Shown here piece after piece: positions 6,572 through 12,929 of a stretch of DNA of 64,000 bases. Numbering within the stretch: the stretch's first letter is position 1; the number at the start of each line of letters is the position of its first letter. This DNA is from Bacteroidales bacterium (GTDB taxonomy: Bacteria; Bacteroidota; Bacteroidia; Bacteroidales; Prolixibacteraceae). The position numbers and the translations under genes are program-made. The DNA is taken from contig JAAYDJ010000021.1 of the NCBI GenBank assembly GCA_012729335.1, forward strand, positions 186,001-250,000, written 5' to 3'. The notes below the pieces were generated by a model. That model had not been told where the DNA came from, did not search any database, and saw only the letters and a list, made by a program, of their open reading frames with translations.

Positions 6572-7675
6572 TTACCGCTCCCCGTTGGTGTGGTCCATGA
6601 TTTCGGTCTGTATTCTCACCGAATCCTCGTGGATCATCTGAAAGAGCACCTTGGTGAAAGCCTCGGCCAGGTTGAGCTTTTTCCCCAGTTGTGTGCGGTC
6701 TTCCATGAGTTGCGCCCAGCGGTTGATCTGCAGGGCGGTCACATTGTTTTCCCTTTTATACCTGCCAATTTCCCTAACGATATCCATCCGGGAGGAGAGC
6801 ACTTCCAGCAGTTCCTTGTCCAGGGCATCGATCCGGTTGCGGAGCACTTCCAGCTGGTTGTCGAACAGGGGATTGGCGGCGCTCTGATGACGGATGACCA
6901 GTCTGTCAAGGAGTAAGCCCAGGTCGGCGGGGGTGAGCTGCTGCTCTTTGTCGCTCAGGGCGCAGGAGGGGTCTACATGCGATTCGATCATCAGCCCCTC
7001 GAGGCCCATGTCAAAGGCTTTCTGGGCGATCTCATAGAGATACTCCCTTTTCCCGGCGATGTGGCTGGGGTCACAGATCACGGGCACTTCAGGCATGAGA
7101 CGGCGCAATTCGATAACAGTCTGCCAGTTGGGATAATTGCGGTATTTGGTTTCCCCAAAGGGTGTGAACCCCCGGTGAATCGCCACAATATGGCGTATAC
7201 CGGCGCGGTACACCCGCTCGATGGCCCCCATCCAGAGCTGAAGGTCGGGATTCACGGGATTCTTGACCATCACTACGGCATCGGTACCCCTGACCACGTC
7301 GGCAATCTCCTGCACCACGAAAGGGCTGGCCGTGGAACGGGCTCCGATCCAGAGCACGTCAATGCCGTGTTTAAGGGCTTCCTCGGTATGGGTGGCATTG
7401 GCCACCTCAGTTCCCACCGGCAGTCCGGTCTCTTCCCTGACTGTCTGCAGCCACCGGAGGGCCACCGATCCCATCCCCTCAAAGCTGCCGGGGCGGGTAC
7501 GGGGTTTCCATACTCCTCCCCGGAAAACAAACACCCGGTGGTCACGGGCCAGCATCCTGGCCGTGGCCAGCGCCTGCTCCTCACTCTCCAGACTGCAGGG
7601 CCCCGCAATCAGCAGGGGATTGTTGAGCTGCGGCAACCACTCCCTGACCCTGGATATTTCCAATCCTGTACTCAT
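6572..7675 (-). CDS. Bifunctional 3-deoxy-7-phosphoheptulonate synthase / chorismate mutase
   Basis: First enzyme of the shikimate pathway (PEP plus erythrose 4-phosphate to DAHP) fused to a chorismate mutase that makes prephenate. The N-terminal 250 residues are a type I-beta (KDO8PS-like) DAHP synthase: LLIAGPCSLES near residues 21-31, GARSTASPFVVQEIAD, VMVKNPVNPDLQLWMGAIER, and CDPSHIAGKREY. Residues from about 273 form an AroQ-type mutase helix bundle (LRNRIDALDKELLEVLSSRM...IGRYKREN). This domain order is common in Bacteroidota. It is the second gene after tyrA (3-bp gap), so both enzymes leading to prephenate and tyrosine are co-transcribed behind the leader at 8678-8752. Confidence 0.95.
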   Translation of the reverse strand: MSTGLEISRVREWLPQLNNPLLIAGPCSLESEEQALATARMLARDHRVFVFRGGVWKPRTRPGSFEGMGSVALRWLQTVREETGLPVGTEVANATHTEEALKHGIDVLWIGARSTASPFVVQEIADVVRGTDAVVMVKNPVNPDLQLWMGAIERVYRAGIRHIVAIHRGFTPFGETKYRNYPNWQTVIELRRLMPEVPVICDPSHIAGKREYLYEIAQKAFDMGLEGLMIESHVDPSCALSDKEQQLTPADLGLLLDRLVIRHQSAANPLFDNQLEVLRNRIDALDKELLEVLSSRMDIVREIGRYKRENNVTALQINRWAQLMEDRTQLGKKLNLAEAFTKVLFQMIHEDSVRIQTEIMDHTNGER

Positions 7676-7678
7676 TTG

Positions 7679-8575
7679 CTATTTGGTAAAATATGTCACA
7701 AAAGTCTCTTCATTTTTCAGGAAGCGGGGGCTCTCCCCATTCAGGATGGCCCTGATGCGGTTGGCATTCAGGATCAGCGCTTCGAGCTGCCGGCTCTCCC
7801 CGTCGCGGATGGCATCGCGGAACTGCTCCAGATGCTTCATGTAGACGTTGAGCGATTCCACCATGTAATCCCTGTTTTGCACAAAGATGGGGTGCCACAT
7901 GGCGCAGGAACTCTTGGCCAGCCTGACGGTGGAATTAAATCCCCCGCTGGCCAGGTCAAATATGATGTTCCGGTCTTCCTTGTCCTGCACGGCATTGGCC
8001 AGGGCATAGGCCGCCGCATGGGGAAGATGCGACACAAAGGCGGTACTGTGGTCCTGCTCATCGGAAGTCATATAGGCGATGTGCATGCCCAGGGCATGAA
8101 ACATCTTCTCGACCAGGGCCAGGTGCTGGGGACCGCTCTCCTCCTGGTCGCAGAGAATGGCGATTTTCCCCCGGAAGAGGTTTTCCAGGGCCGCCGAAGG
8201 CCCCGAATTTTCGGTCCCCGCCATGGGATGGGCTGGTACGTACTGGCGACGCCGTGAATGCTCCCGCACCGCTTCCGTTAACCGCCGCTTGACCGACCCC
8301 ATATCCGTCACCGTGGTGTGCGCCCCCACCCGGTCCAGCACCCCCGGCAACAGGGTTACCGCCACATCCACGGGAGTGGTTATCAGCACCAGATCGGCCC
8401 CGGGCAACGCCTCCTCCAGAGAATCCACCCGATCCACAATCCCCAGCCTGACCGCCTCCGCAGCATGCTCCGGATCACTCTCCACTCCCACCAAACCAGT
8501 GGCAAAACCCGCCCGGCGTAAATCCTTCGCCATCGACCCCCCAATCAATCCCAATCCGATCACAACTACATCCAT
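7679..8575 (-). CDS. tyrA: Prephenate dehydrogenase
   Basis: Oxidative decarboxylation of prephenate to 4-hydroxyphenylpyruvate, the tyrosine branch. MDVVVIGLGLIGGSMAKDLR is the N-terminal NAD(P)-binding GxGxxG motif. LVLITTPVDVAVTLLP, VTDMGSVKRRL, and HPMAGTENSGPSAAL with the catalytic-site His region follow, then the helical dimerisation domain (FVSHLPHAAAYALANA, FNSTVRLAKSSCAMW). At 298 residues it has no C-terminal ACT domain, so feedback would have to act elsewhere. It is the first structural gene after the attenuator hairpin at 8616-8647, and the DAHP synthase gene follows 3 bp after its stop. Confidence 0.94.
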   Translation of the reverse strand: MDVVVIGLGLIGGSMAKDLRRAGFATGLVGVESDPEHAAEAVRLGIVDRVDSLEEALPGADLVLITTPVDVAVTLLPGVLDRVGAHTTVTDMGSVKRRLTEAVREHSRRRQYVPAHPMAGTENSGPSAALENLFRGKIAILCDQEESGPQHLALVEKMFHALGMHIAYMTSDEQDHSTAFVSHLPHAAAYALANAVQDKEDRNIIFDLASGGFNSTVRLAKSSCAMWHPIFVQNRDYMVESLNVYMKHLEQFRDAIRDGESRQLEALILNANRIRAILNGESPRFLKNEETFVTYFTK

Positions 8576-8610: not shown

Positions 8611-8647
8611 TTAAAACAGAAGGTCCCGGGAATCCGGGACCTTCTGT
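8611..8647 (-). terminator. Leader terminator (attenuator) of tyrA operon
   Basis: A perfect 14-bp inverted repeat, arms 8634-8647 and 8616-8629, with a four-base loop 8630-8633. Read on the minus strand the stem is GC-rich at its top and is followed by TTTTAATT, a short U-tract. It lies between the leader peptide stop (8678) and the tyrA start (8575), so it would end transcription before the structural genes. On the plus strand no gene precedes it. Confidence 0.8.
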
Positions 8648-8694
8648 AAATTATCTTTTGCCTGCCGCATACAATATTCACCTCTCAGCCCCGG
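8634..8694 (-). promoter_or_regulatory. Candidate antiterminator pairing in tyrA leader
   Basis: CCGGGGCT, in codons 20-22 of the leader peptide (8694 down to 8687), can pair over eight positions, two of them G-U, with GGTCCCGG (8641 down to 8634) in the 5' arm of the terminator. A ribosome stalled in the aromatic codons upstream would leave CCGGGGCT free, favouring antitermination. A ribosome reaching the stop codon would cover it and let the terminator form. The complementarity is read directly; the mechanism is inferred. Confidence 0.6.
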
Positions 8695-8752
8695 TAAACC
8701 CGCCGAAATAATAAAACCAAAAGTAAAAACCGTTTACAGCAGTAAATTTCAT
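8678..8752 (-). CDS. Aromatic amino acid leader peptide upstream of tyrA
   Basis: A 24-codon reading frame from ATG 8752 to TGA 8678. It contains NGFYFWFYYFGGF: leader residues 9-16 are eight consecutive aromatic codons, giving in all six Phe, three Tyr and one Trp in 24 residues. Such a run is a classic sensor for charged tRNA-Phe and tRNA-Tyr, the products of the two-gene operon that follows. A TAnnTTTG promoter lies about 24 bp upstream, so the transcript would begin just before this ATG. A purine-rich AAAGG lies upstream of the start. The frame stays open to 8881 upstream, but that region holds the promoter. Confidence 0.8.
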   Translation of the reverse strand: MKFTAVNGFYFWFYYFGGFTGAER

Positions 8753-8775
8753 ACTTTTCAGAACCTTTACGGGTA

Positions 8776-8783
8776 CAAATATA
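8776..8783 (-). promoter_or_regulatory. Promoter -7 element of the tyrA/DAHP synthase operon
   Basis: TATATTTG on the minus strand matches TAnnTTTG exactly. The expected start of transcription, near 8769, leaves a 5' leader of about 17 nt before the leader-peptide ATG at 8752. A possible weak -33 TTG lies about 23 bp upstream. Confidence 0.65.
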
Positions 8784-8939: not shown

Positions 8940-9041
8940 AACCTCGGGCGGGTATCTTTTACCTGTGAGCAGATCAAACCATTGCCTTTTGTGATTTTTT
9001 AGAAGTAATTGTAATATTCACCAACTTTAAAACGATTGATT

Positions 9042-12000
9042 ATGAGATTAAAACTTCTACTTCTTCTACTTGTGATTTCCGGGGCTTTGTATGCCCAGGA
9101 ACCGTACCGGAATCTTATTTTCACGGAAATGCGTGGAGATGACACCCGGTTCAACTACATTGAGATCACCAATATGGGGAACAAGACCGTTGACCTGGCC
9201 GAGTTTGAGGTAGGCAACTATGACCCCTGGTCGGCACCGTGGTATGACAACCGTATTGCCGAATCCAGAAGGTTGCGTCTTCCCCATAAGATGCTGGCCC
9301 CGGGGCAGTCTTATCTGATCTGCTCTGTCGATGACGAGCCGTACAACATCTGGCCGCTGGATCCGGAGCGTCATCTCGGGCAGCGGACGGGTTACTATGA
9401 GATGTTTGAGAAGGCTGATCTGCAGATTCACTTTGAAGCAACGGAATGGGGCAATTTCCCGGCCGAATACGACAGTGTTTCACCGTATGGCTGGAACCTG
9501 CTTGACAACTGGGGTGGCCGTAGCTCCTTTTACATCATGCATTATTTCAAGGAAACCGAACTGGAAAGGGACTCCGTCATTGTGGATGCCTTCAATGCGG
9601 CTTACAATGCTGAAACCAGCCCATACAAATCAACGGGAGGTTCCGATGCAGCCGGGGTGACCGGTGCCACCGGCAACCGTATCCTGGTGCGTAAAGCCAC
9701 TGTCACGGAAGGAACGGGCGATGCCCTGGACTCCTGGACACTGATAGCCGGTGTGGACATCACCGACTCGGAATGGCTGCCCCTGAGGTTCCCCCAGGGT
9801 GGATGGAATCCGCTGGTGAAACCCTACTGGACCATTGGCAACCATGGCGACTTCACCCTGAGCACCCAGTCGATCAAGGGTAAAACCTCTGCCACGGTGG
9901 TGGATATCCCCAACAAAAAAATCACCGTGCCCTGGGGCGTCAGGAATGAGTTCTATTTCCTCGACAACTTCGTGGAATCCCCCGGTCTGGCGTGGTACTA
10001 CACCCTTTCGGCCGCCAAGGAAGACTCAGCCTATGCTTCGGCGCGCACCAACGACACCATTACCTTCTATGCTGTGGGTAACACCCTGCAGGAGATCAAG
10101 TTCGTCATCAATGTACTGCCTTCGACCGATGCCGACAACATCGTGATGCCCAAAATCCCGATGCAATACAACAGCGAGCAGTACAATGGTACCTATGTCA
10201 ACATGGGGGCCTACTGTGGCATCACCACCGGGCATGAAGTCGACACCATCATGGCCGGCAACCTGCTGCTGGGTATCGGGTACAACACCAGGGTCGACTC
10301 CCTGCTGAAATACCTCGAGAAACCCACCCAGGCCACCTGGGAAATCCAGTTTGTAGACGGCGTGCAAAGGGCCGACCTCAAAAACGGCGACAAGCTGAAA
10401 GTGACCGCAAAGAACGGATCCGTGAAGGAATACTTCATCAAGATCAACCGGTATGCACCCAACAAAATCGCCCGTCTGAGCGCCATTACCTGGCCCGATG
10501 TTCCCGAATCCCTGAAAGGATTCTTCGGATGGAAGGGAGATACCATTCCCGGATTCAGCGGCACCAACTATGATTACACCATCAGCATTCCCGCAGAAAC
10601 CGCCGGAATGCCGGCCCTGGTCGCCAAGCCCGAACAACTGAACACCACCGTGCAGGTCCACAGGGCCACCAACCTGGCAGGCTCCCTGGCCGACCGTACC
10701 GTCACCTTTAACACCACCGCCGAAGACGGAACCACCAAGCTCACCTACAAGGTAACCATGAACAAGGAAAAAGCCCTTGAAGATGTGGAGCCCTATTTCG
10801 CCGATCCCTTCATTTCGGAGTTTGTATACAGGGACCAGTGGGCCAACAGTTACATGGAAGTGGTGAACCCCGGAAACCAGCTGCTGGATATGAGTAACTA
10901 CATGTTCGCCTATGCTTATGTCAACAGTCCGGCCGAAGCCATCACCATGCAGACGGCCGCCGACAGCTGGGCCAACCGTTATCTGAAGTACATACCCGGT
11001 TACAAATGGGTAGACCAGGCCACCTGGGAAACCCAGCCCGCCATGGTCGTGCCCGACCCGGCCGTCGACCCGATCGTCTATCCCGGCGAAGTCTTCGTGA
11101 TTGGTGACCGGCGTGGTGGAGGCCAGGTGAATGCCACCCAGCATCCCTGGTGGGGAGGTTACAAAACCAATGTCGACTTCGGTACGGGTTACAACCCGTG
11201 GGGTGAAACCATCGGCGCCTGCCTCACCGGCTGGCATGCCACCAACTACTACCTCTTCCGCATCGACAACGACTCCATTAAGCTGGGCCTCAAAGCGGCC
11301 AGCGATCCCAACGACTTCACCCTCATCGATGTCTTCGGAAGCGGTGACGGAACCAACTCCGTCGTCAACGGCAGGAACATCGACCAGATCCAGAGCTTCA
11401 CCCGTAAGCCCCATATCTACCACGGGAATACCGAATTCAAGGGTTCTTTCGGCACCAACGACGACGACAGCGAATGGTTCTATGCCGACAGGCCGTACTG
11501 GGTAAGCAGGGGTTACGGATGGCCTGTGGACATCCTGATGATCTGCTCCGGATTGGGCAGCCACTTTATGAACGAACCCACCGCCTACAAGTCGACCATC
11601 AACTCGGTCGCTTACAAGGTGAGTGAAGGCTACGGACCCGATGAAACCCTCCGCGGGGTCAAAGCCAACACGACCGTCGACGACTTCCTGACCAGGATCC
11701 TCAAGGCCAACCCGGGACAGACTCTTACGCTCAAGAATGCTGCAGGGAATGTCCTCACCGGAACCCAGAAGCTGACCAACGGAGACAAGCTCGAGGTCCT
11801 TTCGGCCGACAGTGTAAACACCTCGGTCTATACGCTTAATGTGACGGAGAAAGGGTTGAGCTCCAACGCCATTCTCTCCTCGGCAACCTACTTCATCAGT
11901 GTGGACGTGACCACAGGAGGTATTTACCTCATTCCGCAGGGGACGAAACTGACCGATGCCATCGCCAATGTGGTGGTACCCGAAGGAGCCACCCTGACCG

Positions 12001-12929
12001 TGGTTGATGGCAACGACGCCTGGGTGCCCTTCAAGAAACTCAATTTCGACAGCACCTATGTCGACGTGATCGTCACCGACAATATCTACTTCGAAGTTCT
12101 GGCCGAAGACGGGCTGACCATGGTACGCTATCAGCTGGTGCCCGATGCAGAAGCAAGCGACGCCTTTGTGACTTCCGACCTCTATGCCGTCGACCAGTCC
12201 AAATTGCTCATCAGCTTTGTTCCCAGGGGCACTGAAGTCTCCTCCTTCCTCAGGAATGTCATTCCGGTGAGGGGAGCCACCATCAAGGTGGTCGACAAGA
12301 ACGGCCTGCAGCGGACCAAGGGAGCGCTCTATCAGGACGACATGCTCGTGGTGACCTCCAAGGACGGTAAGGTAACCAAGACCTACTATCTCGATATGCT
12401 GAGGACAGAATTCCTCTCCACGGCTTATCTGGCCTATGTCCTTTCCGACACGTATAAGGTCGACCAGATCGGCAAGGTGATCACCAAGCCGATGGCCGAA
12501 TCTGCCATCAGTGACCTGATGGCCAAGCTCACCCCGGCCTTCGGAGCCCAGATGGCCATCTTTGACAAGAACGGCGTAGCCAAACCGACCACAGGCAAGC
12601 TGATGCGCGGCGACGTGCTGAAGGTGACCTCCGCCGATGGCAAGATCGTGAACACCTACGCTCTTGAACTCGACTACACCGCCGCCAGCACCATCAGAAG
12701 TGAAATCAGCGTCTATCCCAACCCGACCGACGGTGAAGTCCACATCAGGGGTCTGCAGGCCGGAAACCGCGTCAGGGTCATCAACCTCACCGGAGCCCTC
12801 CTGTTTGACAGGGTGGCCGGCAACTCGCTGGAGATGATTTCCCTCAGGAACCAGCCGTCAGGCATGTATTTCATCACCGTCAGTGACGCCGGCAATGTGA
12901 TCGGCCAATACAAGGTGATCAGAAAGTAA
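9042..12929 (+). CDS. Large secreted protein with lamin-tail-like domains and T9SS type A sorting domain
   Basis: A 1295-residue exported protein of unknown function. A Sec signal peptide (LKLLLLLLVISGALYAQ) is followed by a lamin-tail-like domain (YRNLIFTEMRGDDTRFNYIE...). A second such domain starts near residue 590 (ADPFISEFVYRDQWANSYME). Several beta-rich modules of roughly 90-110 residues follow in series; they recur with a signature such as GDxLKVTSADGKxxxTYxL, seen near residues 930, 1110 and 1210. The last 75 residues (ISVYPNPTDGEVHIRGL... to GQYKVIRK) are a T9SS type A sorting domain, so the protein should cross the outer membrane and be attached or released. The ATG at 9042 is preferred to the TTG at 9036. 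A terminator follows. Confidence 0.85.
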   Translation: MRLKLLLLLLVISGALYAQEPYRNLIFTEMRGDDTRFNYIEITNMGNKTVDLAEFEVGNYDPWSAPWYDNRIAESRRLRLPHKMLAPGQSYLICSVDDEPYNIWPLDPERHLGQRTGYYEMFEKADLQIHFEATEWGNFPAEYDSVSPYGWNLLDNWGGRSSFYIMHYFKETELERDSVIVDAFNAAYNAETSPYKSTGGSDAAGVTGATGNRILVRKATVTEGTGDALDSWTLIAGVDITDSEWLPLRFPQGGWNPLVKPYWTIGNHGDFTLSTQSIKGKTSATVVDIPNKKITVPWGVRNEFYFLDNFVESPGLAWYYTLSAAKEDSAYASARTNDTITFYAVGNTLQEIKFVINVLPSTDADNIVMPKIPMQYNSEQYNGTYVNMGAYCGITTGHEVDTIMAGNLLLGIGYNTRVDSLLKYLEKPTQATWEIQFVDGVQRADLKNGDKLKVTAKNGSVKEYFIKINRYAPNKIARLSAITWPDVPESLKGFFGWKGDTIPGFSGTNYDYTISIPAETAGMPALVAKPEQLNTTVQVHRATNLAGSLADRTVTFNTTAEDGTTKLTYKVTMNKEKALEDVEPYFADPFISEFVYRDQWANSYMEVVNPGNQLLDMSNYMFAYAYVNSPAEAITMQTAADSWANRYLKYIPGYKWVDQATWETQPAMVVPDPAVDPIVYPGEVFVIGDRRGGGQVNATQHPWWGGYKTNVDFGTGYNPWGETIGACLTGWHATNYYLFRIDNDSIKLGLKAASDPNDFTLIDVFGSGDGTNSVVNGRNIDQIQSFTRKPHIYHGNTEFKGSFGTNDDDSEWFYADRPYWVSRGYGWPVDILMICSGLGSHFMNEPTAYKSTINSVAYKVSEGYGPDETLRGVKANTTVDDFLTRILKANPGQTLTLKNAAGNVLTGTQKLTNGDKLEVLSADSVNTSVYTLNVTEKGLSSNAILSSATYFISVDVTTGGIYLIPQGTKLTDAIANVVVPEGATLTVVDGNDAWVPFKKLNFDSTYVDVIVTDNIYFEVLAEDGLTMVRYQLVPDAEASDAFVTSDLYAVDQSKLLISFVPRGTEVSSFLRNVIPVRGATIKVVDKNGLQRTKGALYQDDMLVVTSKDGKVTKTYYLDMLRTEFLSTAYLAYVLSDTYKVDQIGKVITKPMAESAISDLMAKLTPAFGAQMAIFDKNGVAKPTTGKLMRGDVLKVTSADGKIVNTYALELDYTAASTIRSEISVYPNPTDGEVHIRGLQAGNRVRVINLTGALLFDRVAGNSLEMISLRNQPSGMYFITVSDAGNVIGQYKVIRK

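Follow-up and report, generated by a model that had tools for sequence, protein, structure and literature searches.

The tyrA/DAHP synthase-chorismate mutase operon on the minus strand of the window (the whole stretch of 64,000 nucleotides that was analysed) is preceded by an element of ~140 nt, which is very probably a ribosome-mediated (leader-peptide) transcription attenuator. The element would couple the operon to the supply of charged Phe and Tyr tRNA and probably also to that of Trp tRNA. The mechanism is classical and of a kind already known, and it is conserved to a striking degree in a group of bacteria from which there are hardly any descriptions of it. A promoter box, a leader of 24 codons that includes eight aromatic ones in series, a segment within the last codons and a 14-bp terminator had been proposed from the sequence alone, and all of them were confirmed at their positions when the minus strand was read. 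They are listed below by window position, together with the helix P1, which was absent from that sequence-only reading.

8776..8783, minus strand: putative promoter box TATATTTG, Bacteroidota-type -7 (TAnnTTTG), read directly from the sequence
8678..8752, minus strand: leader ORF of 24 codons plus stop, peptide MKFTAVNGFYFWFYYFGGFTGAER, ATG at 8752 and TGA at 8680-8678
8729..8742, minus strand: 5' strand of the lock helix P1, formed by the codons immediately before the aromatic run, base of the predicted ribosome-free protector hairpin (shuffle test and folding)
8705..8728, minus strand: sensor run F-Y-F-W-F-Y-Y-F, eight aromatic codons in series, codons 9-16 (sequence and frame test)
8687..8694, minus strand: segment 2, CCGGGGCT, 5' strand of the antiterminator, partner 8641-8634, -15.4 kcal/mol
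8662..8675, minus strand: 3' strand of the lock helix P1, between the leader stop and the terminator (shuffle test and folding)
8616..8647, minus strand: intrinsic terminator, perfect 14-bp hairpin ACAGAAGGTCCCGG-ATTC-CCGGGACCTTCTGT, segments 3 and 4 (sequence read)
7679..8575, minus strand: tyrA, prephenate dehydrogenase, first gene of the operon, ATG at 8575
6572..7675, minus strand: DAHP synthase-chorismate mutase (type II) fusion, second gene, 3 nt after tyrA

The assignment of TATATTTG as a -7 box is our assumption from the consensus TAnnTTTG; a TTG at 8809-8807 is a possible -33 element, with a long spacing of 23 nt to the -7 box. Eight Phe/Tyr/Trp codons in series are present only once in the window on both strands, namely at the leader, and such a run was found in none of 40 simulated windows with matched first-order base frequencies, so the aromatic run is beyond chance. 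The terminator had been described as carrying a U-tract. A T-run indeed exists behind it, but it is short and weak (TTTT, 8616-8613), and the first of its four T is itself paired. Because the neighbouring gene is divergent (start at 9036, plus strand), the terminator ahead of tyrA ends no upstream gene. The product of this neighbour (9036-12929, plus strand) is large and combines a lamin-tail domain with a sorting signal for type IX secretion.

The identities given earlier to the two structural genes were borne out by their domains. TyrA is matched by NCBIfam PRK08507 above the cut-off and by Pfam PDH_N and PDH_C, and the second protein contains Pfam DAHP_synth_1 and CM_2, with no NCBIfam model for the fused enzyme above the cut-off. 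The structural genes thus make the amino acids that are encoded in the leader run, as expected of an attenuator. A search of the host genome for a class II DAHP synthase found none, and the one further match to the fused enzyme is a KDO8P synthase (NCBIfam); the fused gene is therefore the only DAHP synthase found in this genome. As the pathway would then have one entry enzyme, it would make sense for the sensor to include Trp and so respond to all three aromatic amino acids.

Other genes of the host genome were inspected as well. The prephenate dehydratase gene pheA (G000:C21:156966-157502, L124) lies outside the operon and has a TATATTTG box near its start; judged by eye, there is no aromatic leader directly before it. 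Six-codon Phe/Tyr runs in the host genome numbered five forward and none reverse, compared with eight and five for a reversed-pattern control, and inspection of four regions from this search yielded nothing usable. A search for His runs gave 94 matches vs 23 for its control and was uninformative.

Folding computations were in line with switching between alternative structures. RNA polymerase would start near 8769, and a ribosome would then enter the leader. When aromatic amino acids are plentiful, the ribosome would reach the stop codon and cover segment 2, so that the terminator could form and transcription would stop before tyrA; with a ribosome placed on the leader stop, the finished RNA was indeed computed to fold into the terminator (-29.7 kcal/mol). 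When aromatic tRNAs are scarce, the ribosome would stall in F-Y-F-W-F-Y-Y-F and leave segment 2 free to pair with the 5' arm of the terminator once this is made, and transcription would continue into the operon. The RNA transcribed as far as segment 3 was computed to form the antiterminator (-23.2 kcal/mol) whichever of codons 9-16 occupied the ribosomal A site, the footprint being taken as 12 nt. The pairing of CCGGGGCT with the terminator 5' arm over eight positions, as predicted previously, amounts to 8 bp and -15.4 kcal/mol, with p = 0.04 vs shuffles.

In the absence of a ribosome, the codons before the run would pair with the RNA past the stop, forming P1. In the computed ribosome-free fold of the window, P1 closes a hairpin in which the aromatic codons pair with segment 2; since segment 2 is tied up in this way, termination would be the default. 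The P1 helix of the window (8742-8729 with 8675-8662) has -15.7 kcal/mol and p = 0.003 vs shuffles. It departs from the family sequence and is shifted in register, the family register having a probability of only 0.49. Among 64 family sequences folded without a ribosome, the probability of P1 exceeded 0.5 in 55, and segment 2 was paired upstream in 63. In the folding model, the three computed states (stalled, at the stop, ribosome-free) are those of a classical attenuator. A pseudoknot of P1 and the antiterminator was also considered, as the two helices cross on the alignment. It was set aside, as ribosome-free folding gives the P1-closed hairpin with segment 2 paired to the leader, and a pseudoknot is not needed because a classical protector explains P1.

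The host belongs to the Prolixibacteraceae, with Draconibacterium, Sunxiuqinia, Puteibacter and Prolixibacter as named relatives. The order depends on the scheme: the source entry gives Bacteroidales, and the NCBI taxonomy places the family in the Marinilabiliales of the class Bacteroidia; our order-level sampling followed the GTDB order, which is wider than that of NCBI. The TyrA of the window was matched in 46 of 61 genomes (60 relatives and the host). At the best 30 TyrA loci, all from Prolixibacteraceae, a short aromatic-rich ORF was found at most ~290 nt before tyrA in every case. In the nearest relative, L002 (TyrA 79% identical), the aromatic run is interrupted (FFYRSSYYYVPY).

A covariance model made from 30 family sequences matched 126 of 140 family genomes, mostly with a single match each, and the element was present in 100 of the 103 good family genomes and in 23 of 23 genera. 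Of the 14 family genomes with no match, 12 gave nothing better than 1e-17 for the DAHP synthase-chorismate mutase; in G003 the fused gene is represented only by a C-terminal fragment, and in G132 the fused gene is present and the contig stops within tyrA. Relatives that keep the operon and lack the aromatic run and the hairpin had been named as what would speak against the proposal. No such relative, with the operon kept, the DNA before it assembled and the element missing, could be demonstrated among these 14 genomes, and the proposal withstood this test within the family.

For the following counts, a set of 125 sequences was used, from which G126, whose two matches are truncated at contig ends, and an additional incomplete copy in G073 were excluded. 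A start motif of tyrA follows the element within 420 nt in 122 of them; two of the remaining three stretches end too soon, and in one tyrA is frame-shifted. The latter (L147, G091) has an intact leader and a frameshift near the start of tyrA, which may be an assembly error or a decayed gene. Upstream DNA was present for 124 sequences, 117 of which have a TAnnTTTG box at most 70 nt upstream of the model match, compared with 6.9 expected by shuffling, and in 85 of these 117 the box starts 24-27 nt before the match.

A few low-scoring matches of the model looked different. Three weak ones (L232, L234 and L235 in G111, G093 and G149) contain terminator-like hairpins and, by eye, have no aromatic leader inside the match. 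Another (L233, G022:C18:47553-47687, minus strand) consists of a histidine leader, MYTRHHHHGHHYFLQR, and a terminator; it has a TGTATTGTC...AAAATATT stretch in common with the aromatic element, and the start of the gene that follows resembles hisG by eye.

An aromatic leader was found at the same place in all 125 family sequences. At least five aromatic residues within ten occur in every one of these leaders, and at least six in 121; Phe and Tyr codons are present in all, and Trp codons in 85. In the aligned run of a non-redundant set (64 sequences, those under 85% identity), 419 of 443 codons (95%) are aromatic in the leader frame, while the other two frames give 134/441 (30%) and 94/441 (21%). 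Judging from this codon content, the reading frame of the leader is conserved across the family.

The peptide is recognisable family-wide, with a consensus around NN[TS]FYYWFYYFGS..G[IV], as would also be the case if the short ORF encoded an aromatic-rich microprotein with a function of its own, such as a membrane peptide, next to an unrelated terminator hairpin. We regard this as very unlikely. Phe, Tyr and Trp interchange in the leader, and where non-aromatic codons are conserved, their RNA takes part in pairing, AACAATAC in P1 and CGGGATC in the antiterminator. Moreover, the stop codon of L025, L034 and L220 lies upstream of segment 2, whose RNA is still kept, and leaders elsewhere have little in common past their aromatic richness.

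The sequence-only reading had suggested asking whether the aromatic frame and the two alternative helices co-vary among relatives, and in the alignment of the 64 family sequences they do. In the terminator, 95.9% of cells are paired and two-sided changes occur in eight of ten pairs; the respective values are 96.7% and four of seven pairs for the antiterminator, and 84.8% and six of eight pairs for P1. The best slid controls, with the partner moved by 1-3 columns, reached 73.3% (terminator), 63.2% (antiterminator) and 70.5% (P1). For all three helices, the percentage paired, the two-sided cells and the covariation score were equalled by 0 of 500 shuffles, which correct for relatedness only in part. 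Two other counts did not clearly exceed the shuffles, namely two-sided pairs in the antiterminator (112/500) and P1 (107/500) and further pair types in the antiterminator (70/500). The first 30 family sequences gave the same picture of the helices as the 64.

The terminator and the antiterminator use a common strand, the 5' arm of the terminator, and both show compensatory changes. In L022 and L023, GGGATC / GGTCCC is changed to GAGATC / GGTCTC, and in L029 and L030 to GGAATC / GGTTCC; each time the 3' arm of the terminator follows. Several lineages thus alter three strands jointly, which is what switching between two helices requires. The individual leaders were also subjected to shuffle tests, in which single bases and not dinucleotides were shuffled and from which L012 and L013 were left out, as the perfect-stem scan found no terminator there. 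Among 28 family leaders, the antiterminator reached p < 0.05 in 18 and failed to do so in 10, and P1 failed to do so in four. Together with the conserved frame, the terminator and the antiterminator with its compensatory changes in the family give the interpretation as an attenuator good support.

The family consensus contains a dyad, AACAATAC ... GTATTGTT, an inverted repeat with 8-bp arms ~57 nt apart, which could be read as a DNA operator for a repressor with control at initiation. However, the arms co-change to other complementary sequences and differ in other lineages, and one of them sits within leader codons, making such an operator extremely improbable. A terminator with an alternative antiterminator is likewise common to T-boxes, riboswitches and protein-dependent attenuators, which would sense the amino acid directly and leave the short ORF incidental. 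In a search of the whole window with the Rfam models at their cut-offs, T-box and riboswitch families included, no match was found. Under permissive settings, Phe_leader (RF01859) scored 20.3 bits against a cut-off of 55 (E 0.34) and thus did not reach it; the unrelated family SL1 RNA scored above it in the same search. In addition, the element measures only ~140 nt and contains a coding run that keeps its frame and aromatic content. Direct sensing can therefore be considered exceedingly unlikely.

The occurrence of such leaders outside the family was assessed with a scan that demands a perfect stem, so the counts obtained with it are lower bounds. One locus missed by the scan (L046) illustrates this, as the covariance model finds the element at L196, whose contig has the same length. 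At named TyrA loci, an aromatic leader with a hairpin was present at most 5 kb upstream in 47 of 80, compared with two of 80 in a reverse-strand control. Outside Prolixibacteraceae, 35 of 67 named loci had one and 32 showed none, and at the 14 loci of Chryseobacterium and Kaistella none was seen in the perfect-stem scan over 5 kb upstream. The Flavobacterium leaders L108, L109 and L112 lie 2.3-2.6 kb upstream of tyrA.

Of 60 genomes from other families of the same GTDB order, 26 have an aromatic leader and hairpin ahead of the DAHP synthase-chorismate mutase gene (reverse strand, 2/60). The other 34 keep the fused gene with no leader seen, so that the link between operon and leader seen throughout the family does not extend in the same way beyond it, bearing in mind that the scan undercounts. 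Two of the stretches scanned were only ~1 kb long, and in G060 the scan took a copy of the fused gene (L278) that lacks a leader; two leaders precede its second copy (L043).

The antiterminator reached p < 0.05 in 32 of 39 leader modules from outside the family and in 23 of 27 modules of a fresh sample. The respective counts for P1 were 17/39 and 7/27, compared with 10/162 in a cross-lineage control. These counts indicate that P1 exists beyond the family and is not universal, and that the antiterminator is nearly universal. In 24 of 27 modules outside the family, a computed protector hides segment 2. Five of the 35 outside-family leaders (L063, L120-L123) were left out of the module tests as close copies or for brevity, and L039 and L041, of nine order-level loci, were not carried into them; the fresh sample leaves out L242 and L260, whose peptides repeat L079 and L103.

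Five loci in genomes of other families (L042, L043, L285, L288 and L292) have two leader and terminator modules in series. They precede what appears to be the first gene of an aromatic operon, by eye pheA or an aminotransferase. Both modules gave < 0.05 in the antiterminator test in L042, L043 and L292, and one of the two did so in L285 and L288.

As far as our searches show, the element is new, and so are its P1-closed protector, its sensor of mixed aromatic codons, its conservation throughout the family with triple covariation, and its spread and doubling in related families. We put forward as a possibility, and tentatively, that leader-peptide control of the aromatic pathway is old and widespread in Bacteroidota, with one Phe/Tyr/often Trp sensor in front of varied operons (pheA-, aminotransferase- or tyrA-first) and doubled in several lineages as a two-step gate. 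Bacteroidota hardly use Shine-Dalgarno sequences. If attenuation operates as proposed, ribosome and RNA polymerase would be closely coupled at these leaders in such a phylum. Since attenuation of this kind works only with a ribosome that follows RNA polymerase closely, transcription-translation coupling in Bacteroidota would become directly testable. With hits in 126 genomes and a structure backed by covariance, the element, which falls under no Rfam family, gives geneticists a concrete example of leader-peptide attenuation to test in this group.

Leader-peptide attenuation is textbook knowledge in Proteobacteria. In the pheL / pheA attenuator of enterobacteria, a leader peptide rich in the end product is combined with alternative protector, antiterminator and terminator hairpins, and the element described here is like it in its set of hairpins, in its type of leader and in sitting upstream of genes of the same pathway. 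The two differ in that pheL is rich in Phe, whereas the present leader mixes Phe, Tyr and often Trp codons, and in that pheL controls pheA, whereas here tyrA and the DAHP synthase-chorismate mutase fusion would be controlled. With the trp, his, ilv and leu attenuators of Proteobacteria and Actinobacteria, the element has in common the stall codons, an antiterminator segment by the leader stop, termination as the default and a ribosome-free protector; unlike these, it is found in another phylum, follows a promoter box of the TAnnTTTG type and has three amino acids in one run. To our knowledge, sensors mixing Tyr with Phe and Trp codons are unusual, as are doubled aromatic attenuators. The wide attenuator surveys of Vitreschak et al. 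in 2004 and of Lopatovskaya et al. in 2010 may contain predictions for Bacteroidetes.

Among the matches listed by our literature search, none dealt with this element or with attenuators in Prolixibacteraceae. Tandem attenuators with two short ORFs are described for mgtCBR of Salmonella (PMC3641672). In Bacteroides thetaiotaomicron, short ORFs in long 5' UTRs were called reminiscent of leader peptides; the example given in the excerpted text is a hypothetical gene and not an aromatic operon, and its existence is said to need validation (PMC7366714). The closest account concerns Flavobacterium psychrophilum, in which strong clues for leader-peptide attenuation before amino-acid operons were reported, as well as a conserved structured 5' element before pheA with no Rfam match (PMC9723704). 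The earlier statement that no detailed case is known for this gene pair is thus roughly right and has to be read beside these flavobacterial reports. In the sections of the account at hand, a leader sequence, an antiterminator and a comparative test are not given, and Prolixibacteraceae and a tyrA-first operon are not covered. Phylum and pathway of the F. psychrophilum pheA element are nevertheless the same as here, and the two elements also have in common that neither is matched by an Rfam family.
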